A DNA stretch of 64,000 nucleotides from a virus. Both the position numbers and the translations under genes were made by a program. This document shows, piece by piece, positions 1 to 12,999 of the stretch. The notes below the pieces were generated by a model, which saw only the letters and a list, made by a program, of their open reading frames with translations, was not told where the DNA came from and did not search any database. The DNA lies in IMG/VR virus record IMGVR_UViG_3300047382_000771, positions 124,001 to 188,000 of that record. One strand, given 5' to 3'. Every line of letters begins with the position of its first letter. The stretch's first letter is position 1.

Positions 1-343
1 CTAAAACTGAATTTATATTAAATTGTCCCTGCATTGGGGCATTAACCACCGCCAGGCTTTTAGGCAAGTCGCCTTGAGATGACATACAACTTTCATTAGT
101 GGTTATCTTGAAACCATCTTCAGATAAAATAAAATCCTGCTTCTTGAAATACCCTCCCTGAGAAGAAGTTTCCCCTTCCATTTGGCCAACCAATTCATTG
201 TAGTTGTGATTAACATGCCCCCAACCAATAACATTAATCGGTTTTTCGGATATCGAATAAGATCCGTCTACGCTTTGTATACCTGATAACTGAGTTCCGT
301 CAACAAAAAACTTTTGTTCATGACCTAGGATAGTTTGCTTCAT
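1..343 (-). CDS. Virion structural protein, N-terminal part (runs off the window)
   Basis: An open frame starts at an ATG that overlaps the stop codon of the tape measure gene (TAATG) and stays open for 114 codons to the window edge. The start of the product, with a GIQSVDGSYSISEKP segment near residue 21, is glycine/serine-rich and beta-strand-like, as in tail tube or other tail structural proteins. The coupled start directly after the tape measure gene fits a tail protein acting after it in assembly. The C-terminus is outside the window, so the family cannot be fixed. Confidence 0.7.
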   Translation of the reverse strand, partial: MKQTILGHEQKFFVDGTQLSGIQSVDGSYSISEKPINVIGWGHVNHNYNELVGQMEGETSSQGGYFKKQDFILSEDGFKITTNESCMSSQGDLPKSLAVVNAPMQGQFNINSVL

Positions 344-3300
344 TAGCTAAGCTCCCCACCAACTCTTTTTTCCTGCCTTATTACATCAAGTACTGCTGCT
401 TTAATTTTCTTAGATAAATCTTTTTCATTAGCTCCCCCTTTAGAACCTCCAGCCCCTCCTGTCTCTGTAGATGTTTCTTTTCCTGATTCATCTATGCTAA
501 CATTTACATTTATATTATTAGTGACACTTGATGCCGAGCTTGGTTGCTGCCCAGACTGACCTGTAGACTCTGGGAGAGGGGCCATTTGCGGGGCCTGAAC
601 TTGCGGCATCTGGGGAGCCATTTGTGGCTGGGCAGACGCACTAGGCAACCTATTGTTAGAAACAACTCCACCCTGGTAGTAATTATTAATTCCTTTCCTA
701 AATCCATCAGGGTTTTGGACGGCCATCTTAAATAAGTTCGGATTTCTCTTCATCAACTTATCTGTGGATGACTTTTTGACTACAAAATCTCCTTCGTTTA
801 ATCCAACTGGACCGACCTTATCTATACCAGATTGACCTCTCACTATGGGTATATCCCCCGAAGTATTCAACTGCTCAAGATTTGAATACCCTATTTTCTT
901 TGCCACACTAGATGGAATTAAAGATTCACCCGCAGTTAACATTGCTGGCACAACACTGCCTCCTTTATTATAACCTCTTAATTTTCTTCTATTAGCGTGA
1001 TCTATTCCCGTTTTATTAGCAGAATATCTATTGTGTCCAGCAAGGATATTTGCGTTAGTTAGATTTATGCCGCTTTGAACTGTATGCTTCTTAGCTCTTC
1101 TGTTTTGTGATATTTGATTTTTGCTTTTACCATCTCCATAAAGGTCGCCAATAAAACTATTAACCTCATCACTAACAGCTTTTGATGTTACATCTTTTTT
1201 AGCTTGATCTAACATTTTTTCTTCTTTGGATTTGAACAAACCGCCTAATTTTTCTTTTCCTTTTGCGATTAAGGGTGAAGCTAAAGTTGTGCCCATTGAT
1301 ACGAGTCCGCTAGTAACATAACCACCTACCATGCCCATAATTTGATTAAAGGTACCCATCCTTTTTTCAAATTTTTGGTTTTTCTTACCAACATTATATT
1401 CATGCAAGTTTAATAAATGTTGTTCGTATTCTTGTAAACCTGCATTACTTTCAGCCAGCCTACCGCTAACCATTTTATCGTTAGCATTAAGGGATACATC
1501 AAATCCTAAATCTAGAGATTGTAATTGTTTTTCATCGAATACTGGGGGGCCAGCCTCTTGAGGTTTTTGTGCTGATCGAGACGCTGCGTGTGAGCCATAT
1601 GCAGAAGCAGCTGTATTCATTACTCCTTGAGCTCCAGACTTTAATCTATCCTGCCAAGTAGCCTTTCCTCCTTTATTAAACTTAGACACAACATCTTTGG
1701 GTATGACATACTCTCCAGCAGTGAGCATAGCGGGAACATTATCTATCCCTCCTGGGCCATTTACTAGTCCACCCTTGGCATATTTTTTAACCTTTCCACC
1801 AGCCATCATTTCAGCAGGGCTTGGAGTAGAATTTTTAATACCATTTAAAGCTATAGGTATTTTAGATATTTCGGTTTTAGCCGAATTAACTTCGCCTACT
1901 AATTTTCCTAAATGAGCGTTCGTAGCTTGAGCATTAGCATCCGCACTTTGTACCAACTGTGATAATTCAGGCGTACCCGCTGTAGCTATTGATTCTTGAG
2001 GGTTTGCTACAGATACTGTAGCTGGCTCAGCCATGATTGGCCTCTCGTATCCAACGGGTACAGCTCTATCTGAAGTAACAAAATCATTAACTTCTTTCTG
2101 TGCAACTTTTTCTTTTGATTCAGCCTGACTGAGTTTGTTTGAATATTTCTTTAATTGCTCTTGAGCTCTTGCAAGCTCAGCTGCTAGCGGAGCAAGAGCT
2201 GCTTCAGCATCTTCAAGCTTACCCCTGAACATTTCTAACTTTGCTATTGCACTGTCATACTCTGCCTTATCCTCACTATTCGTCAAGTCTGAATTTAATT
2301 TTAAATCATTCACCTTATTTTGTTGCACATCAAAATTAGACTGTGCATAATCTTTGCTCTTTGACAACGAGCTAAATTCATCAAAGTTTTTACCTGTAGG
2401 TCTTACGAGCTGATTACCACCCATGAACATTCCCTTGTTTTCGTATAAGGGGCCCTTGAATGATTTGATAGTTTTTTGAGAATTATCAATCATTGACTGA
2501 GCATGGTCTTTATCTGATCTAATGTTGTGTAGTTTTGATTTAGCTATATCTATATTTTTGTTCCTAGTTATTTCAGACATTTTTGAATCATCGTATTTAG
2601 ATACATCCAAATCCCTTTCCATCATAGATCTTCTTTGCATCTCCACATTTACATATGGATTCTTGTCATAGCTTTGTTTGAATGGATCTACTTTGTTTTT
2701 TAAAGCTATAGAATTTATTTGATCCTGGCTCTTCGGCTTATTAGCTTCATTCGCCTTTTTTTCAGCTGTTTTTTGAACTTGCTCTACTTTATCTTTTGAA
2801 CTAGAAGATGGAGCTTCTGTCAGTTGCTTTTTTTCTATAGCATCCTTTAATAGGATAAGGCTGTCTTTAAGATCCACCATTGGTGACTTAAGGCCTTCTA
2901 TAGCATTATCAATCCATTGAGGTTTATCTCCAAACAGACCCTTTAATTCCTCTCTAAATTTTGCAGCAAAATCACTCGCTCCACCAGCAATTTCTGATTT
3001 TAAGTTAGCTACTAATTTTTCTGTATTAGTTAATTCAACTCCGTCAGTGAGCCCAGACTCAACCCTACTAATTAAAGATTCTAGTTTAGAAGAAAGCTCT
3101 TTCTCTACATTAGAAGATTCATCAAGTTTAGCCCCTAATTCAGTATTAGCGTCTACGACCATCTGGGCATCGCTTTTTGCAGATTCCCCAGTAAAAGCAA
3201 AAGTCAAATCCTTAATAATGTTATCTATATTAGCATCCATCATTCTGTCCATAATGGTGTCCGCAATACCAAGTCCCACGTCAGCAAATGCCTCTCCTAT

Positions 3301-6300
3301 GTCCTTGGCTCCAGTAGCTATATCTTTAAATGCTCCTTTTAAGCCAGACCTTGCACTATCAATTCCAAGGTTAACTAAGTCTGATTTTAAGTTAGATGCC
3401 TGAGCGTTCATCTCTGCCATCTTTACCTTGAGAGCATCTACTATTTCAGAGTTATTACCAATCTCTTTATTGTATGCCTTGTAGGCTTCCGCAAATGCAA
3501 GAATATCATCGGGGTCATCAGTAAGTGTTGCCCTTGTTGCTGATTGTCTTACCGCCCCTAGGCTTTGAAATTTTTCTGTCTGAACATCTGCGGCTACCAT
3601 CAAATCCATAGTTGGCTGATCCATCAAGGCTTGCTCTTTAGCATTCCTGAGAGCTTTTAATTTATTACCAGTTTCTTCCAGAGATACAGCAGCTCTCATT
3701 CTTTCTGCCATTTGGTCATTCAGAGATAACAGTAATTCTTTTTTAGCATTTATTAATGAGCTTTTTTCTGTACTTAATATTTCTTGTTCTACTTGCTCTG
3801 AAACTATCTCATTTATTTTACCAGTTATAATAAGTCTTTGTAATTTTTCTTTCTCTAACTTATTACCATCTTTAAGTTCAGATAATTCTTGCTCTATTTG
3901 TTGATCTGCAATTATAGACCTGTAACCCATTTTATCCATTATTTCTCTGCGTATTTGGGCAGTCTTATTGGTGGTTACTAAATCTATCATTTCTCCCTGA
4001 ACTGTAGACTTAATTGTCTCTAAACTTTTTGCATTGTTATCTAGAGCTGATAATTTTAAAGCTTTCTTTTGAACTTCTATAGCTAAATTGTCGGCTTCAG
4101 CTGATGCTTCGTCTGCTACAATTTTACCAAGCATATTCAAGTCAGACAACATACCCCTTCTAATGTCAGCCTCAATAGCCGCAGATTCAGCTGAAGACGC
4201 CTCTTCGCCTATTTTGATAAGTTGATTCTTCATCAGCAACTGTTGCGTATCTAAAACTTCTTGATTCTTGGATGGGGCTGAAGATAGTAAACTGTTACTC
4301 ATTCGAGATGACGACAATCCTTCCATTCCAGATTTTGAAGACTCAATCGCTTGCTTTCTTAAATTTTGAAATATTAATCCTTGAAATGCGAGGCTATCTT
4401 GTTCTAATTTTAACCTTTTTGATGCGAACTTATTTTGAACAGATAACGTTGCGGCTTGACCCATAAGGTTTTCGGTTATCGTTTCTTGTGTCGCTAAAGT
4501 TTTATTTAATTCTTTTTCTAATAATTTAGCCCCCTCAACTGTTTTAGCTTCTATTAATAATTTCTTTAAAGACTGCTTGTTTTTCTCGTCTTGCCTTTTT
4601 GCCTCTAAATCTACAGACACAAGCAGTTGCGAGTATTTATCAGATGCTTCGGCTAATTTCTGTAAAGTACTTTCTTCTACAGCGAGAATGCCAGATTCTA
4701 CCGCCGCAAGTGTTGCCGCCAGCTGTACCCTTGGGTCTTGCTCGTCAGCAATTTTTTGAGTTATTTCATTTAATTTTTCTTGGAATTGAGTACCCTCATC
4801 GATTTCGGCTCCTTCAAATATTCTACTGACACCATTTTTTATTTCATCATCAACATTTAAATCAGTTATAACCCTAGAATTAAATTCAGTAAATTCAAAA
4901 TCTGCATTAGCTGCATTTTGTAATCTTTTATTAAATGTTGAAATTGATTTAGCTAAATCATCTCCTTCTCTCTTTAAATCTGGAGACAATAAATTGGTAG
5001 TCATTATTGTTTTTGCTTGATCAAGTATGGCTATAGATAGTTCATCTTCTGCATCTGCGCGTTTTTTATTTAACGCATCAAGCTGGCTAGCTGCATCCCT
5101 GGATACTTTATTAAAAGCGGCGGTAGCATTACTCATCATGCCATACTCGCTGATTAAATCTTCAGATGCGGCAGACTCTTCTCTTCTTAACTTGTTCAAC
5201 TCTAATTGATGACCGAGGGTTATCTTTTCGTAAGACACTCTTGTTTTAGCTAAGTTAACTAGCTTGTTTAATTCTTTAGCAAATTTAGTGTCAGCCATCA
5301 TGATAGCCTTCTGACCATCAGAGATATCATTTTTAGATAAGCTGTCGGCTAATCTATTAATTAAGGCTGCAAAGCCTTTAATTTCATTATCACTTAAACC
5401 ACCCATATCGTACTCAAACTCATCAGTGGTTTTCTTTAAATTGTCTAGCATACCCTGAATCCCAACGCTACCAACCAATTCGTTAGCGTCAAAATTTAGT
5501 TCGTCTATATCCATTGATGGGTTAGCGGCAAGCTTTCTTAGTTCTGAAATGTTTTTTTGTAATGACGAATCTTGCTCTACGGCACTGGCTCCAGATTTAC
5601 CTTTTAATAAATCCTGCATAGCAAAAGCGCTCCTTGCTCCCTCTGCTTCTGATAGCCTTAAAAATTTCTCTACATTATCATCGCTATCTGCTTTGTCTAC
5701 ATTTTCTGAAAAATTAACCCTGTTTGATTCTACAGCAGTTAACATTTTAGTAACCACCAAAAGATCTTGTAATGCTTTTTTGTTTGCGGCATGAGCTTCA
5801 GTGCTTCCACCCAAAGCTTTATTAACAGCTTTTAATCCAAACTCTCCGACTTTATTCTCATCATAAAGAGCCCCCATGGAATCCATAAGTTTAGAATCAG
5901 CATCTAAGCTTTTTAATCTAAGATCATAATATTCTTGTTCTTGTTTTTGAGTTCTACCTGAGCCTAATATTTCAAGGTCCACCATTTTTTGCTGGATTTC
6001 TTCTTTAGACTTCATGGATTCAAGCGCAGCAGAAACAGTCTCTGAAGTCTTACCCAACTCCTCTATTTGTTTCCTGGCTTTAGAGGCACTACTTGAAAGC
6101 AAATCAAATATACCCTCTCCAACAAAAAACTTAAAAGCCTCATTAACAAGGGTGAAACCTGTGTACAGCTGACCTATTACTGGTAAGAACCTAGTAAATC
6201 CTCTAGCTAATGCACCTACCGACTTACCCAATAGTGGAATTTTTCCACCAGTCATCTTTGCGAGTCCACCACGAACTCCACCTCTTTGCTGGTTCCTTAA

Positions 6301-9300
6301 ATTTCTAGATACAGCCTCCCTCTCACCTGCATTTGCTGCAGCTTCTCTTTGCGGATTTCCCCCAAAAATATCTCCGACACTTCTTTGTTCGTCTGAACTT
6401 TGACCAAGAGCTTCCGATATTTCGGGGATTAATTCTTTTTGTTGCATGTATGCCGCAAAAACCTGCGACGCACCCATGCCTAACTCTGCTAAATTCTTAC
6501 TTGCGCCTGACGCTGTTGATGCAAATTCACCAAGGAATCCATTCGCCATAGAAATCATGGACTGGAAGAAGAATAATCTCTGCAGTCCGTTCTCTCTCCC
6601 TTTAGATTCTGCCTCTATAGCTGCCTCAGCCTTGCCAGTTTTTACAGCCAGATCATTAAATACCCTGGCTACTTTATCGCCTTCTTTTATGACCTCACTG
6701 TCACCTCCAGACCTTGCTTCAGCTTTTTGAAAAGCTCCAAACATTTCTTTCCTGGCAAGATCTGTGGCCCCCGTCAGTGCTGGATTAACAAATGCATCCT
6801 TATCTCCACCCGCTGCAGCTTTTTCAGCATGACTAATTTGGGTACTAACTTCCTCCACAGATTTAGATGCCTTCTCAAACTCTGTCTTGGTTAGCTTGTC
6901 TTTTAAAAATTGTAAACCTTTTTCTAAATCTTTAGCTCCTTCATTGATTGAAGTGATTATGGGTTCTAGGATTTTATCTTGATTAGATCCACCAAGAGGA
7001 GCACTAGGCCCACTAACAGGGACAATAGGCTTTGCTGCAAATTGTGAATAATTACTTTGGCTAGAATCGTATTCACCAAATTTACTCCCTCTTCTTGTAA
7101 GAGCATAGTTAGGTACCAACCCCTTTTGTGCTCCATGTTTTTTAGGGTCGATGTTCATCGACTTAGCTCTTTTAATTCCTTGGTTCACACCTAGAGGTTC
7201 GTCTCTTGTGTTTGTTACAGCTAAACCTAAAGGATTTTTTCTATCCACCAGCTGATTGCTTCTTTCTATCCTGATGGTTGAAGGTGGTACACCAGCAGCT
7301 TTTTCTCTTTTAATGGCTTGAACTAATGGGTCACTAAAATTAGGAACAATTCCTTTATTTGCTACATCATAATATTTATCTTCATCTCCCTTGAAATAAC
7401 CTCTTAGTAAATGATTACTTGTAACTCCTTCTGATATTCCTTTTCTTTGAAAATTCTTTGCCTGAAGTAAAGATTCTGTATGTTTCTTCAAGAAAGACTT
7501 CATTAACTTACTTGGCTGCTTGATTCCATCTTTCTCCATGTTACGAATAACACTTGGGTTATCCATCACAGATTTAATGTGCCTTATGTCTTCCGTGTTA
7601 GCCGATATAGAGAATGTTTCCTTATCAAGCCTAAGACCAGAAACTGGAAACTCCATTTGCATCCACTCTACAATATCCTGAAATTGTTTGTACTCATCAG
7701 GGGTGACTTTTAAATAGTTTTTAGTATCCGCCTTTAAGCCCTTCCTGGCTTTTTCAACCCTATTACTAGCAACAAAGTTAGGGACAAGACCCTTACTTGA
7801 GAACCCCGCCGCAGAATCACCTTTCCCTTTAACCCTTGTGGTCATTAAATCCTGGAAATTTACAGCTTCATCCATATCATATGGACCACCAAATGGCTTA
7901 AAAACTAAACTTGCAATATCTGCATTTTCTGGCTTAGTAAAGTGTTTGTTAATATCACTCTTAAAATTTACAAGACTATCAAAACCCATTTGTTGCTCAT
8001 CATAGCCCTCTGAGTAGCCAAAGACACCCCCAGTTTGTAGACCTTCCTGTACTCTATATTTTATTTGAGGAAACATTGAAACAATATTAGCCCAGGGTGT
8101 CGATCCCATTCCATTTCTCTGGGGAGTCAAAAATCCAGATCCCAAGGATTCGTTATCTTTTAATAATTTATTAAAGTTATTAAATGCGCCTCCTTTTAAA
8201 TCTTTATCCCCTCTGGTTGCGTGCAATATTTCGGCATGTCCCGCAGGGTATTGTCTATACTTCAAGCTGGTTCCCGTTGCAGGGTCTTCCATTTGTCGAA
8301 CAGACATGGCAAAATTTGGCACAAGCCCTTTATTTAAAACCTGCATAACCTCGCTTTCGCCAGGCAAAATTTGACGAGTGCCATTAGGGTTATAACCAAT
8401 ATCTGATTCTGGAACCATTTGTTTCATGGTCTTGTCGTAGAAATCGTATTCTTTTCTACCATATTCCATTTTATAATGGTCCAATAAAGACCTATCATTT
8501 CTTCTACCGTAAACATTCAGATATAGCCCGCCATTTTCTTCGGCCCATTTTTGTATGGCACCACTTGCCATAGCTTCTTTAAATTCCTCAACTTTAGGGT
8601 AGTGTCCTTTTTCGGGGTCAGCTCCCTTGTTTAGTATTCTCAGCATTTTCTTTTTATTGAATACATTTTTTTCTGGGACGGTTTTCTCGAGTACATGACC
8701 TTCTTCTACTGGCTTGCCTGGTCGGATTGCCCCCGCAAAATTCTTAGCAACAGTTTTTGAGGTACTGAAGGATGTCGCTCCAGAAGGTTTCTGGTTCCCA
8801 ACATCTCCAATATCCCTATAGCCAGCCATAACCCCACTTACATGAGATTTAACGAAATCTTGCACAACTCCAACTACATCTTCTGGAGTCTTTACTCCAT
8901 CAAATGATGGCATATTTTTACCAATTGTAGGTTCGTCAATCCCTTGCCTTGATTTATTTTGACCTCGATATAGAGTTAAGTTTGCAAAGTTAGGAACTAA
9001 GCCTTTTGAGAAATCATCTTCTCTTACTGTTTCTCCTGGTTTAGGTTGGTAATAATTTCCAGCTTTTTCTAAAGCCAAACTTATTTCATTAAATAAGATT
9101 CTTTCGTTTTTTATTTTTCCATCTCCACCAGCATAAGAAGTTGTAAATCCCTCAGGGTCATCTGCTTGAGCATCCTGTATTGCAGCCATATATCTATGCA
9201 TATATTTTTCTATCTCTGGAGAATTCATCTGAATCTTACCTCCAGTTCTACGCTCATAAGCGGTTTTAATAGCAGCTTTAATTTGGGACTCTGAAAAATA

Positions 9301-12300
9301 TCCAGTTTTTAAATTGAGGGCATTAAAATTCGGCACTAATCCCTGGGCTGTATTTACATAATCTCTATAAATACTCGGCCTAATCCAGTCAGGATTCATC
9401 TTGACCCCTAAGGAATTCATGCCTTGACTTGCGATGTCTTCGACGTCTGGGTCTGAGTTTAATCCGTAATTAATTTTATTGCCAACCATCTCGTAGCCAT
9501 CTAACCCCTTGCTATTAATAAACTCGGCAGCATGAGAAGGGAGAGCTACATCTAATATAGACGACCCACCATCCCTATCCATCATAAATTCTAACCCAGA
9601 TTTTATTGCGGGGGTGTTATTGGCTTTGGCTAGCATTTTTGTAGCTGTATGAGAAAGTCCAGACTTAGCCGCTTCTCCGTGTGTCACGCTTTTGATAACA
9701 TGCGGATTAATCCCTGTGTCGGGGTTGTATTGACCAGGACCAATATTTACATCTCCCTCTGTATTTTTTTCCCAATCAAATCTTGATGTTGGTCCGCCAG
9801 GGTCTCCCATGTAAGCCCTATCACCAAAAGTCGATTGAAAATCTTTACCCATTTTTGACGCTGTTGCTGGAAATCCAGTTCTTAATACTGTTGATGGGTC
9901 TAGCAAATCTGAGACTGGAATAGACTCAGTCTTTACTGAGCTTGTAGTACGATCAAGCACGTCTCCATTAACATATCCTCCCGAAGAAACCATCTGCCCC
10001 CTATGAGGTCTAAATATTTTACCAGACGCCAAAGTATATTCATTCCTTGCATTGATCGTCTTGCCATCCATATTGTAGACATCTCGCTCGGACGCGTAGT
10101 TAGGTACAAAACCAGAACTTATCCCATGCGACACAACTAAATCCTTAGCGGCTTCATCTATTAATGCTGGATTTTCTCTTAAAGTTTTTTGTAATTGGTT
10201 TTTCTGTATTAAACCTCTAACCTCAGACATGGACATACCAACAGGATTCCAAGAACCCATTCTCGCTAATTGAGCCAAACTTTCTACTAACAAGTCTTCC
10301 TCAATCTTACTGATCATGTAATTTAATTCTTTAGCTACATCATCGTTTGTTAAACCTTTTGCAGATGGATTAGGGGTAGTGTCACCAACAAAAGAATCAG
10401 CTATAGCCCCTACTTGATCCCTGAATGCGAAATTAGAATACCTTCTAATACTCTTAGATGCTATATTATTTAAATCAATTTCTCCAGCTTTTATCTCAAA
10501 AGGCACTTCTCCTGGTTTAATTGCGTCTACTACAAAATTACTTTTACCCTTCGAATTATCTATTTTATAGGAGCCATATTCATCTGTAGCTTCTAGCCCA
10601 GCACTAGATCGATAGCCATCACCTTCTCCGCTCCCCAGAAATAAAGATTCGCCTACATTCCCTTTATGATCATTATTTCCTTTATTTAAATTACTTAAAA
10701 CTTTTTTATGGTAAACTTTTGGCTTTTTAGCCATCCTTGGGACATCATCTATATATCCAAAAGGAATTTTGCTTTCAATTTCCTTAATACCTAACGCCTC
10801 TAAATACTCACCTAAGGACAAAGCAGATTTATCTCCCCCTGTAGCCTTAAAGGAAGAGCCTTTTAATTTATTAGCTTGTGTGGTAAAAGTTATATCTATA
10901 CCAGAGCCCTGTAAATCTTGATCTCCATATTCAGCTATAAACTCTTTTAATTGTTTCCTGTATTCTGAGGTTTTAAACTGTCCAGTCTCTAAACCTCTAA
11001 GCTCCATTGCCTGGGAACCAGTTGTTAAGTCGTTTTGTATGGCTGCGAAGTTTGGTACATAACCCTTGAATGCGTAAGGATCAAAACCATGTTTATTACT
11101 AAACTCTTTTTCGTATTTCTTACCAGCTCTAGAAGATCTAGGCGGCATGATTGCGGGTTGATCCATCCCTGGAAACTTTTTAACTGTTTCTGCTTTATTA
11201 TATACTACTTTCCCGACTCCAGAAATTGACATTGAAGATATACCGCCAGGTGTATACCCAGCTTCTATTGCTCCTTTTCTTTCTTTTCTTTTGGCGGATG
11301 TAGGGATGTGTCCACTCGCTCTTGTGCCCACCTCACCTGTCCCGCTACCATCTAAATCTACAAAAGAATTAGTGTTTACGGTTAAATCTGGATTAACTCC
11401 AGCTCTTAGAGCTGCGCCAGCCAAAGATGAGGCTAATTGTTTTTGCTTAATCATTGCGTTGGTTTGTGCTTCAATAACTTTGAGCATGAATTTTTCTTGA
11501 GCGAGCCTATCTCCCTCTAATTCATTTAAACCTTCTTGAATTTGCTTGTTTTGAGATAATGCACCAATGATGGAATTTTCCATTTGTACAAGTTTCTCTT
11601 TTCTACCAACAACACCTAATACATCTTTTAAACTTTGTGACGCAAACTTACCCACGTTCATAAGCATCTTACCCATTACAGCTGTAAAAGCAACTAAGCC
11701 AGGCCCACTAAGTACATTCCCTATTCCTTTTACGAATCCAGTAAAAAATGTATTACCTGCTTCTTCTCCTCCACCCAAGGCATTCTTTAGACCGTTAGCT
11801 GCACCTTCTACATTTTCTAATATACCTCCGATTGGCCCCTTAAGTGTCAAGTTTCCAATCACTTCAGCCAACTCTTCTATAGATACTGTTGTTCTTTTAG
11901 CTAGAGCGTCTAATGTTTTATTTAATTGCTCATTTTTAATGGCCGCATCGCCCATGGCATCTCCTGCTATAGCGGTTGCTCTTTCAAAGATATTTTGCTC
12001 TTTAGCTAAATCCCTCAATGCAGATTTAAATATATTAGCCTGAAATATACCTGCAGCAAATTGAGTAATATTAGATTGCTGGGATTCAGTTAAAGAATCG
12101 AAAGATTTTGCTATGTTTTGTAAAACTTTATCTGCAGGCAGTAAATTACCTTGTAAATTTTTAACCTGAACACCCATTTCTTCTAGCTGCCTGATGGACT
12201 CAGGTCTTCTTATTCTTGTGAATATTGTTTTAAGTCCATTACCAATCACAGAACCACCTCTAGCAGTGGTTTGTTGTAGCGAGGTTACAATACCAATTAA

Positions 12301-12999
12301 GTTATTCAACTTAACACCTGCATCAATTGCTACAGCACCCGTACGCTCCAACGCATTAATTAAATCTTCAGAACTAACCGCAAAGTTGACATCAACAGCG
12401 GCCAACTTATCAATAATGTCGGTCGTCGTGACACCGCTATCCCCAAATGCATTGACTGCTGCAGTTAAACCAGATACAGCCTCTTCAGCCTTTAAGCTTG
12501 TCAATCGAGTTAAAATTAGTGCATCATTTGTCCTTCTCAAGGTTTCCTCCATGGACAAACCCTGTCTTGAAAACTCTAATGCGGCCTCTGCCACCTGATT
12601 AAAAGACTGCCCCGTATTTTTAGCAGTATCAAACAACGCCATCCCAAAAGCTTCTATGCTTTGTTGTGATGAACCCATTATGACATTTATGTCAGCCATA
12701 ACCTTTTGGAACTTAATAGTTTCAGCAACTAACCCTTTAAAGGCATTACTGACAGCGTTAATTATTCCTACGGAAAGACCAAAAGCTATAACACGGGCAT
12801 TTGATGCTTCTAGTGACTTAGTAAATTCGTTAGCTGAAGCAGTGATTCTCCCCAAAGGCTGGGTAAAAGATTTTGAGTTTACTGAAAAATTAGCCTGCCT
12901 ACCAGATAGCCTAGACATCATTTTGTTGAATTGCATTTCAACAGAACGCATGCCTTGAGCATCTAGCTCTGGTCTTATTCCTACTCTAACTCCTGCCAT
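343..12999 (-). CDS. Giant tail tape measure protein with embedded effector-like modules
   Basis: A 4,218-residue protein that should set tail length and leave the tail during DNA injection. Residues about 90-350 look like the TP901-type phage tape measure core (amphipathic helices, GNGLKTIFTRIRRPESIRQL near residue 260). Residues about 645-1960 are split by eight G-[LIFY]-V-P-N-[FY] motifs into globular-looking modules, including an ADP-ribosyltransferase-like and a nuclease-like one, listed separately. A hydrophobic stretch lies near 2253-2295, followed by about 1,500 residues of charged coiled coil. The C-terminus carries two VPAMLTAGE motifs (about 3753 and 4015) typical of tape measure proteins. 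At 0.15 nm per residue it would span about 630 nm, probably an overestimate given the globular modules. The start has AAGG upstream. It lies downstream of the InlB-repeat tail genes in the same direction. Confidence 0.92.
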   Translation of the reverse strand: MAGVRVGIRPELDAQGMRSVEMQFNKMMSRLSGRQANFSVNSKSFTQPLGRITASANEFTKSLEASNARVIAFGLSVGIINAVSNAFKGLVAETIKFQKVMADINVIMGSSQQSIEAFGMALFDTAKNTGQSFNQVAEAALEFSRQGLSMEETLRRTNDALILTRLTSLKAEEAVSGLTAAVNAFGDSGVTTTDIIDKLAAVDVNFAVSSEDLINALERTGAVAIDAGVKLNNLIGIVTSLQQTTARGGSVIGNGLKTIFTRIRRPESIRQLEEMGVQVKNLQGNLLPADKVLQNIAKSFDSLTESQQSNITQFAAGIFQANIFKSALRDLAKEQNIFERATAIAGDAMGDAAIKNEQLNKTLDALAKRTTVSIEELAEVIGNLTLKGPIGGILENVEGAANGLKNALGGGEEAGNTFFTGFVKGIGNVLSGPGLVAFTAVMGKMLMNVGKFASQSLKDVLGVVGRKEKLVQMENSIIGALSQNKQIQEGLNELEGDRLAQEKFMLKVIEAQTNAMIKQKQLASSLAGAALRAGVNPDLTVNTNSFVDLDGSGTGEVGTRASGHIPTSAKRKERKGAIEAGYTPGGISSMSISGVGKVVYNKAETVKKFPGMDQPAIMPPRSSRAGKKYEKEFSNKHGFDPYAFKGYVPNFAAIQNDLTTGSQAMELRGLETGQFKTSEYRKQLKEFIAEYGDQDLQGSGIDITFTTQANKLKGSSFKATGGDKSALSLGEYLEALGIKEIESKIPFGYIDDVPRMAKKPKVYHKKVLSNLNKGNNDHKGNVGESLFLGSGEGDGYRSSAGLEATDEYGSYKIDNSKGKSNFVVDAIKPGEVPFEIKAGEIDLNNIASKSIRRYSNFAFRDQVGAIADSFVGDTTPNPSAKGLTNDDVAKELNYMISKIEEDLLVESLAQLARMGSWNPVGMSMSEVRGLIQKNQLQKTLRENPALIDEAAKDLVVSHGISSGFVPNYASERDVYNMDGKTINARNEYTLASGKIFRPHRGQMVSSGGYVNGDVLDRTTSSVKTESIPVSDLLDPSTVLRTGFPATASKMGKDFQSTFGDRAYMGDPGGPTSRFDWEKNTEGDVNIGPGQYNPDTGINPHVIKSVTHGEAAKSGLSHTATKMLAKANNTPAIKSGLEFMMDRDGGSSILDVALPSHAAEFINSKGLDGYEMVGNKINYGLNSDPDVEDIASQGMNSLGVKMNPDWIRPSIYRDYVNTAQGLVPNFNALNLKTGYFSESQIKAAIKTAYERRTGGKIQMNSPEIEKYMHRYMAAIQDAQADDPEGFTTSYAGGDGKIKNERILFNEISLALEKAGNYYQPKPGETVREDDFSKGLVPNFANLTLYRGQNKSRQGIDEPTIGKNMPSFDGVKTPEDVVGVVQDFVKSHVSGVMAGYRDIGDVGNQKPSGATSFSTSKTVAKNFAGAIRPGKPVEEGHVLEKTVPEKNVFNKKKMLRILNKGADPEKGHYPKVEEFKEAMASGAIQKWAEENGGLYLNVYGRRNDRSLLDHYKMEYGRKEYDFYDKTMKQMVPESDIGYNPNGTRQILPGESEVMQVLNKGLVPNFAMSVRQMEDPATGTSLKYRQYPAGHAEILHATRGDKDLKGGAFNNFNKLLKDNESLGSGFLTPQRNGMGSTPWANIVSMFPQIKYRVQEGLQTGGVFGYSEGYDEQQMGFDSLVNFKSDINKHFTKPENADIASLVFKPFGGPYDMDEAVNFQDLMTTRVKGKGDSAAGFSSKGLVPNFVASNRVEKARKGLKADTKNYLKVTPDEYKQFQDIVEWMQMEFPVSGLRLDKETFSISANTEDIRHIKSVMDNPSVIRNMEKDGIKQPSKLMKSFLKKHTESLLQAKNFQRKGISEGVTSNHLLRGYFKGDEDKYYDVANKGIVPNFSDPLVQAIKREKAAGVPPSTIRIERSNQLVDRKNPLGLAVTNTRDEPLGVNQGIKRAKSMNIDPKKHGAQKGLVPNYALTRRGSKFGEYDSSQSNYSQFAAKPIVPVSGPSAPLGGSNQDKILEPIITSINEGAKDLEKGLQFLKDKLTKTEFEKASKSVEEVSTQISHAEKAAAGGDKDAFVNPALTGATDLARKEMFGAFQKAEARSGGDSEVIKEGDKVARVFNDLAVKTGKAEAAIEAESKGRENGLQRLFFFQSMISMANGFLGEFASTASGASKNLAELGMGASQVFAAYMQQKELIPEISEALGQSSDEQRSVGDIFGGNPQREAAANAGEREAVSRNLRNQQRGGVRGGLAKMTGGKIPLLGKSVGALARGFTRFLPVIGQLYTGFTLVNEAFKFFVGEGIFDLLSSSASKARKQIEELGKTSETVSAALESMKSKEEIQQKMVDLEILGSGRTQKQEQEYYDLRLKSLDADSKLMDSMGALYDENKVGEFGLKAVNKALGGSTEAHAANKKALQDLLVVTKMLTAVESNRVNFSENVDKADSDDNVEKFLRLSEAEGARSAFAMQDLLKGKSGASAVEQDSSLQKNISELRKLAANPSMDIDELNFDANELVGSVGIQGMLDNLKKTTDEFEYDMGGLSDNEIKGFAALINRLADSLSKNDISDGQKAIMMADTKFAKELNKLVNLAKTRVSYEKITLGHQLELNKLRREESAASEDLISEYGMMSNATAAFNKVSRDAASQLDALNKKRADAEDELSIAILDQAKTIMTTNLLSPDLKREGDDLAKSISTFNKRLQNAANADFEFTEFNSRVITDLNVDDEIKNGVSRIFEGAEIDEGTQFQEKLNEITQKIADEQDPRVQLAATLAAVESGILAVEESTLQKLAEASDKYSQLLVSVDLEAKRQDEKNKQSLKKLLIEAKTVEGAKLLEKELNKTLATQETITENLMGQAATLSVQNKFASKRLKLEQDSLAFQGLIFQNLRKQAIESSKSGMEGLSSSRMSNSLLSSAPSKNQEVLDTQQLLMKNQLIKIGEEASSAESAAIEADIRRGMLSDLNMLGKIVADEASAEADNLAIEVQKKALKLSALDNNAKSLETIKSTVQGEMIDLVTTNKTAQIRREIMDKMGYRSIIADQQIEQELSELKDGNKLEKEKLQRLIITGKINEIVSEQVEQEILSTEKSSLINAKKELLLSLNDQMAERMRAAVSLEETGNKLKALRNAKEQALMDQPTMDLMVAADVQTEKFQSLGAVRQSATRATLTDDPDDILAFAEAYKAYNKEIGNNSEIVDALKVKMAEMNAQASNLKSDLVNLGIDSARSGLKGAFKDIATGAKDIGEAFADVGLGIADTIMDRMMDANIDNIIKDLTFAFTGESAKSDAQMVVDANTELGAKLDESSNVEKELSSKLESLISRVESGLTDGVELTNTEKLVANLKSEIAGGASDFAAKFREELKGLFGDKPQWIDNAIEGLKSPMVDLKDSLILLKDAIEKKQLTEAPSSSSKDKVEQVQKTAEKKANEANKPKSQDQINSIALKNKVDPFKQSYDKNPYVNVEMQRRSMMERDLDVSKYDDSKMSEITRNKNIDIAKSKLHNIRSDKDHAQSMIDNSQKTIKSFKGPLYENKGMFMGGNQLVRPTGKNFDEFSSLSKSKDYAQSNFDVQQNKVNDLKLNSDLTNSEDKAEYDSAIAKLEMFRGKLEDAEAALAPLAAELARAQEQLKKYSNKLSQAESKEKVAQKEVNDFVTSDRAVPVGYERPIMAEPATVSVANPQESIATAGTPELSQLVQSADANAQATNAHLGKLVGEVNSAKTEISKIPIALNGIKNSTPSPAEMMAGGKVKKYAKGGLVNGPGGIDNVPAMLTAGEYVIPKDVVSKFNKGGKATWQDRLKSGAQGVMNTAASAYGSHAASRSAQKPQEAGPPVFDEKQLQSLDLGFDVSLNANDKMVSGRLAESNAGLQEYEQHLLNLHEYNVGKKNQKFEKRMGTFNQIMGMVGGYVTSGLVSMGTTLASPLIAKGKEKLGGLFKSKEEKMLDQAKKDVTSKAVSDEVNSFIGDLYGDGKSKNQISQNRRAKKHTVQSGINLTNANILAGHNRYSANKTGIDHANRRKLRGYNKGGSVVPAMLTAGESLIPSSVAKKIGYSNLEQLNTSGDIPIVRGQSGIDKVGPVGLNEGDFVVKKSSTDKLMKRNPNLFKMAVQNPDGFRKGINNYYQGGVVSNNRLPSASAQPQMAPQMPQVQAPQMAPLPESTGQSGQQPSSASSVTNNINVNVSIDESGKETSTETGGAGGSKGGANEKDLSKKIKAAVLDVIRQEKRVGGELS
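8344..8988 (-). other. ADP-ribosyltransferase-like module within the tape measure protein
   Basis: Tape measure residues about 1338-1552 lie exactly between the fourth and fifth VPNF motifs. In order, they contain an LYRGQ motif (about 1344), an SFSTSKTVAKNF segment (about 1409) and a terminal PGESEVMQV segment with an E-x-E pair (about 1547). Arginine, S-T-S and E-x-E in this order is the signature of R-S-E class mono-ADP-ribosyltransferases. Phage T4 injects enzymes of this class (Alt), and large multidomain phage 'polyvalent' proteins often carry them. Activity and target are inference. Confidence 0.7.
10120..11037 (-). other. PD-(D/E)XK nuclease-like module within the tape measure protein
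   Basis: Tape measure residues about 655-960 lie between the first and second VPNF motifs. They include a GNVGES segment (about 780), then an aspartate in FVVDAI followed about nine residues later by PFEIKAGE (about 833), giving a D-x(n)-E-x-K arrangement. A glycine/glutamate helix followed by D and E-x-K strands is typical of PD-(D/E)XK nucleases. The call rests on motif order alone and is weaker than the ADP-ribosyltransferase call. Confidence 0.45.

Follow-up and report, generated by a model that had tools for sequence, protein, structure and literature searches.

Introduction

How an enzyme might come to lie inside the protein that measures a phage tail is the question raised by the window analyzed here, a 64,000-nucleotide stretch (positions 124001-188000) of the 200,094-base virus record IMGVR_UViG_3300047382_000771. 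It includes, on the minus strand (as do all features given below in window coordinates), the gene of a giant tape measure protein of 4,218 amino acids (aa) at 343..12999, within which an initial annotation had noticed the elements of an R-S-E mono-ADP-ribosyltransferase. Tape measure proteins fill the lumen of the tail and are ejected at infection, and injection of enzymes from the phage head is known for T4 Alt, the N4 RNA polymerase and the polyvalent proteins. The source of the window is an uncultured virus of bacteria, and its tape measure contains a swappable row of enzyme-like modules. The transferase-like segment is one of these, an interchangeable cassette in a type of array that is found in many uncultured phages, and this was the main point that the annotation had missed. 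It is very probable that the cassette has an ADP-ribosyltransferase fold and is an R-S-E domain. The whole reading, in which an R-S-E transferase is an exchangeable cassette and the tape measure doubles as a carrier of injected effectors, is on balance probable.

Transferase motifs and their conservation

The annotation had described three motifs lying between two VPNF sequences with a spacing of about 205 residues, and this description is accurate: LYRGQ (aa 1343-1347), SFSTSKTVAKNF (aa 1410-1421) and PGESEVMQV (aa 1546-1554) are flanked by VPNF at aa 1335 and 1560, and R1345 is separated from E1550 by 205 residues. The R-S-E motif was rejected as stand-alone evidence because 434 of 1,000 shuffled versions of the protein contain the loose pattern R..STS..ExE. 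A stricter pattern, [FLVI][YFW]RG..SxS-x5-A-x2-F..ExE with T4-like spacing, has one occurrence in the actual protein and none in 1,000 shuffles, and since it was composed after relatives of the module had been seen, weight is placed on conservation rather than on the shuffle count.

Relatives of the close type, which are 53-90% identical to the window module, were found in viral contigs, all of them within large open frames of 3,177-10,566 aa. More divergent modules, which form three subtypes, were gathered by motif, profile and later scans. The divergent subtypes are recovered by a profile made from close-type modules only (E=4.1e-7 and 1.2e-4), and they are therefore homologous and not merely picked by their motif. 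In an alignment of 16 modules the invariant residues are L, R, G, S, S, A, F, K, K, E and E, while in an alignment of 21 modules, some of them ~20% identical, they are L, R, G, H, S, A, F and the second E of E-x-E. The positions expected to be catalytic in an R-S-E enzyme are among the few that never vary in the 21 modules, namely R1345 of LYRG (8965..8967), S1410 of the S-x-S motif S1410-F-S1412 (8764..8772) and E1550 of the E-x-E motif E1548-S-E1550 (8350..8358). The column of S1412 contains S or T in homologous modules, and E1548 is missing in a single subtype of the 21 modules (L136/L186/L187).

The initial annotation had staked its reading on R, S and E being conserved in homologous tape measure modules, which is what the 21 modules display. 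Its arginine and E-x-E were correctly placed, but its serine element was not: S-T-S (aa 1412-1414) is not conserved in distant relatives, and conservation together with the spacing in T4 ModA/ModB puts the true motif two residues upstream, at S1410-F-S1412. The transferase module is under purifying selection, with a ratio of nonsynonymous to synonymous substitution rates (dN/dS) of 0.21 between the window and its nearest relative (L026). The genome collection yielded no relative of the module within reach of a pattern-based scan, and the phage-isolate records contained nothing matching the module or the array.

Relation to T4 transferases and predicted structure

With respect to known TRANSFERASES, the module profile was compared with one that combines T4 ModB, T4 ModA and five relatives. 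The module and T4 ModA/ModB have LYRG, SFS-x5-A-x2-FA and E-x-E-x-M in common with matching spacing, and the two profiles were aligned by hhalign with P=1.3e-4 (probability 53%). In the controls, the N-terminus of the tape measure gave P=0.51 against the ModA/ModB profile, and 35 other module families of the same arrays gave P values of at least 0.047 (probability at most 1.1%). The window module differs from T4 Alt/ModA/ModB in having a long insert before E-x-E and is without database-level sequence similarity to them. The profile comparison points to a remote homology with the Alt/VIP2 clade, and the best reading of the sequence is that the module would be a divergent R-S-E mono-ADP-ribosyltransferase that is closest to the T4 Alt/ModA/ModB clade.

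An AlphaFold model of the module, based on a 16-row alignment, had a mean predicted local distance difference test score (pLDDT) of 62.8 and a predicted template modeling score (pTM) of 0.60. It contains strands at LYRG (R1345 is inside the strand predicted for module residues 3-10), S-x-S and E-x-E, the second of them followed by a helix. When searched with Foldseek against the PDB, the best match was ParT, the Prs ADP-ribosylating toxin, with the top matches at E>0.1, and by our own count ADP-ribosyltransferases or related folds made up 33 of the 50 rows in the list, which are not mutually independent. These folds include TreTu, PltA, RES, tankyrase, cholera/LT, PARP4, diphtheria toxin and ExoA. 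A poorer model was obtained for a shorter, distant relative (pLDDT 50.6), for which TreX, SdeA and the cholera and pertussis toxins came first. In a comparison with a viral library, a PolyVal ADP-ribosyltransferase was ranked second. These matches are individually insignificant and weakly consistent with an ADP-ribosyltransferase. To the annotation's question of a split beta-sheet fold, models of such limited confidence give only a weak answer, with this fold among the best matches.

The module array and its linkers

The assignment of the whole protein as a tape measure, also made by the annotation, was borne out by a PhageMin_Tail domain in the N-terminal backbone (aa 124-312, 12064..12630, E=2.9e-28) and by several PHROG tape measure families that match the 4,218-aa open reading frame (best 1.3e-48). 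Its interpretation is supported in part: an R-S-E transferase domain has good sequence support, given the conservation in 21 modules and the ModA/ModB profile match, but the reading was too narrow, as the transferase-like segment is module 4 of seven that are delimited by [S/K]xG[LF][VI]PNF linkers. Along the protein these are VPNF linker 1 at aa 648 (11047..11058), VPNY linker 2 at aa 965 (10096..10107), VPNF linker 3 at aa 1222 (9325..9336), VPNF linkers 4 and 5 at aa 1335 (8986..8997) and aa 1560 (8311..8322), which are the upstream and downstream borders of module 4, VPNF linkers 6 and 7 at aa 1739 (7774..7785) and aa 1885 (7336..7347), and VPNY linker 8 at aa 1962 (7105..7116). The linker consensus is S-x-G-[LF]-[VI]-P-N-[FY]-A (272 cases), and the motif is absent from every other open reading frame of the virus record as fetched. 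A role of the linker as a DNA-level recombination site was considered and rejected, with the codons for G, N and F at background and proline mildly shifted; since the G, N and F codons follow the background, selection on the linker is at the protein level.

Module 1 (10108..11046) is PD-(D/E)XK-like, and its motif (VDAI..FEIKAG, aa 821-839) is present in 17 of 24 and 6 of 7 members of its two families and in 4 of 472 shuffled modules. Module 2 (9337..10095) is common to L026 only, module 3 (8998..9324) recurs in 5 contigs, and they are followed by the ADP-ribosyltransferase-like module 4 (aa 1338-1558, 8326..8988). Module 5 (7786..8310) recurs in 7 contigs and module 6 (7348..7773) has a sub-threshold match to RhoGAP. 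Module 7 (7117..7335) is of the NPxGLAVTNTRDEP family, a very common last module (at least 62 arrays) for which there was no significant Pfam match. This last module of 67 aa (NPxGLAVTNTRDEPxGVxQGIxRA) is seen in most arrays, near the final linker.

A scan for the DNA pattern of the linker gave at least 120 stretches, and the figures resting on it are lower bounds. More than 60 of the fetched frames, a few from contigs already seen, have three or more linkers, and dozens of viral contigs beyond the window bear arrays. The frames that contain relatives of the transferase module have a common plan, consisting of an N-terminal backbone of ~555-650 aa, a linker-split module array and a long C-terminal part. 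When pooled, at least 472 modules fall into at least 145 families. The repertoire includes an SNase module above the Pfam cut-off, a CCA-adding tRNA nucleotidyltransferase module in which the PolyA_pol head is above the Pfam cut-off and the HD match is weak, GNAT acetyltransferase modules and, by eye only, HAD-, kinase- and P-loop-like modules, while a PADLOC scan of the modules gave two marginal matches and nothing more.

The identity between transferase modules is nearly uncorrelated with that between the N-termini of their tape measures (r=0.15, 105 pairs). For example, the window and L018 are 78% identical in the module and 50% in the backbone, whereas the window and L004 are 28% identical in the module and 63% in the backbone. 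The transferase cassette therefore moves between tape measure backbones.

Proposed function and alternative explanations

That the transferase module functions as a delivered effector is moderately likely, and enzymes that modify the host probably reach the infected cell by way of the tail itself. In the route that we infer, the tape measure travels inside the tail tube as a thread of unfolded modules; because the lumen is too narrow for folded domains of 20-30 kDa, they would pass unfolded and then refold. The protein would exit together with the DNA or before it, the modules would refold in the host envelope or cytoplasm, and the transferase might then modify a few host proteins in an Alt-like manner, with host RNA polymerase or translation proteins as the candidate target class on the T4 Alt model. 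Nuclease, acetyltransferase or tRNA-processing cassettes would act alongside, varying by phage, and the linker may act at the protein level, as a tether or as a site of chaperone binding or processing. As copies per virion are low, catalytic effectors such as a transferase, nuclease or acetyltransferase would be sensible cargo. A more far-reaching proposal, which we advance tentatively and as something short of probable, is that the tape measure is an injectable magazine of multiple effector cassettes (transferase, acetyltransferase, nucleases, CCA-adding enzyme and kinase-like) in a widespread group of uncultured phages, with VPNF serving as protein-level exchange joints that are possibly cut after ejection.

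Several observations weigh against a delivered transferase. With Foldseek neither model had a match with E<1e-3, both AlphaFold models are of middling to low confidence (pLDDT 62.8 and 50.6), the ModA/ModB profile match spans the S-x-S half of the module and not the E-x-E part, and searches of Pfam and PDB sequences with the module reach no ADP-ribosyltransferase. Moreover, a tape measure is present in few copies per virion, a small dose compared with that of T4 Alt. The low significance of the matches to folds and databases would also suit a module with another NAD-using or an unrelated fold that has converged on R-S-E-like positions, and ParT and RES, which are among the matches, are atypical members of the superfamily. 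However, the joint spacing of SxS-x5-A-x2-F and ExE is common to the module and T4 ModA/ModB, and the 35 negative-control families are without a comparable ModA/ModB match. Convergence is the least probable of the alternatives considered.

It is also improbable that the modules serve as structural spacers or decoys by which the length or flexibility of the tail is tuned, with the catalytic-looking residues as relics. The protein is a length ruler, and the array does range from 670 to 2,016 aa while the backbone is steady at 2,272-2,904 aa, but the predicted catalytic residues are invariant at ~20% identity, and spacers would need neither recognizable enzymes above Pfam cut-offs nor purifying selection. 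The strongest of the alternatives, although still unlikely, keeps the ADP-ribosyltransferase fold and has the module act undelivered on proteins of the phage or its host, either at assembly or within the producing cell. The gene belongs to the late (tail) genes, and T4 ModA and ModB show that phage transferases can act without being packaged in the virion (PMC5512222). Yet in every relative found the module is fused to a protein that fills the tail and accompanies the DNA, where a free-standing gene would be simpler, and the companion nuclease and GNAT cassettes would be hazardous to the producing cell. Delivery of the transferase as a tape measure cassette is the reading that we prefer.

Comparison with known systems

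In MuF-type phage toxin fusions and polymorphic toxins, a virion head protein is joined to a variable effector domain, which is a single C-terminal toxin. The nearest known concept is that of the polyvalent proteins (Iyer et al. 2017, PMC5512222), which are large phage proteins of many domains, are predicted to enter the host by injection and include ADP-ribosyltransferase, acetyltransferase, nuclease and similar domains. Many effector-type domains are likewise found in one large phage protein here, but the transferase of polyvalent proteins is of the H-Y-D type and the window module of the R-S-E type, and a zincin metallopeptidase, another polyvalent-protein domain, had no Pfam match at E<=0.001 in 143 module representatives. 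T4 Alt, ModA and ModB are phage-borne and Alt is carried in the virion (PMC5512222), but Alt is a separate head protein whereas the transferase domain of the window is one cassette inside a tape measure. An enzyme is also embedded in the tape measure of mycobacteriophage TM4, which has peptidoglycan hydrolase motifs (PMC1796659); enzymes of this type act on the cell wall, in contrast to the many exchangeable intracellular-type enzymes of the arrays. Tape-measure-related effectors (Sle1, Tme) of bacterial contractile injection systems were reported in 2026 (PMC13277306) and have a tape-measure-like carrier with swappable functional domains. They belong to bacterial nanomachines and have a single C-terminal functional domain with no VPNF array described, whereas in the window it is the phage tape measure itself that is the carrier. 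A search of open-licence papers turned up neither VPNF arrays nor transferases within tape measures, which is no proof of novelty. If the preferred reading is true, proteins that are labeled only "tape measure" contain a large and so far unannotated store of enzymes that modify the host, the passage of folded enzymes through a tail tube becomes testable, and the arrays are a natural example of modular tail delivery.

Genomic setting and other modules

The tape measure gene is in a tail operon context, with two tail proteins encoded by the next genes, and lambda gpL-, gpK- (JAB plus NlpC) and gpJ-like genes were further recognized by reading of the open reading frames. Elsewhere, a gpK-like protein of the tail tip (L061:10600-11328), which contains the JAB/MPN motif HSHP..SxxD, is a candidate protease if the VPNF linkers are processed. 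The tape measure N-terminus has a counterpart of 63% identity in a contig of 3.6 kb that was assigned to the bin of a Flavobacteriaceae genome, which is a weak hint at the host.

Among the other arrays, a 10,441-aa tape measure frame (L020/L045/L046, G006:C1:37366-68690) contains a transferase module, a CCA-adding enzyme, an HAD-like module and ~20 other modules, and a similar frame of 10,566 aa is in G009 (L023). P-loop modules (GPSGAGKT, GPAGTGKT), possibly nucleotide or toxin-like kinases, are found from L011:14558 onward and as F13 modules in 8 contigs. In L004, the module adjoining the transferase module (aa 1720-1903, L004:15170-15691) contains FHGTT..GGVYWSP and resembles an ADP-ribosyltransferase of the H-Y type. 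A ParB/sulfiredoxin-like stretch (IEGNHRVAALGRL) was noticed by eye only at aa 1103-1317 of L025. Finally, one phage record has a transfer-messenger RNA (tag AESSQRVVDLDSIELGLEMAA) at L057:10645-11043 (G000:C1:30645-31043), and there is a tRNA-Thr in L056.
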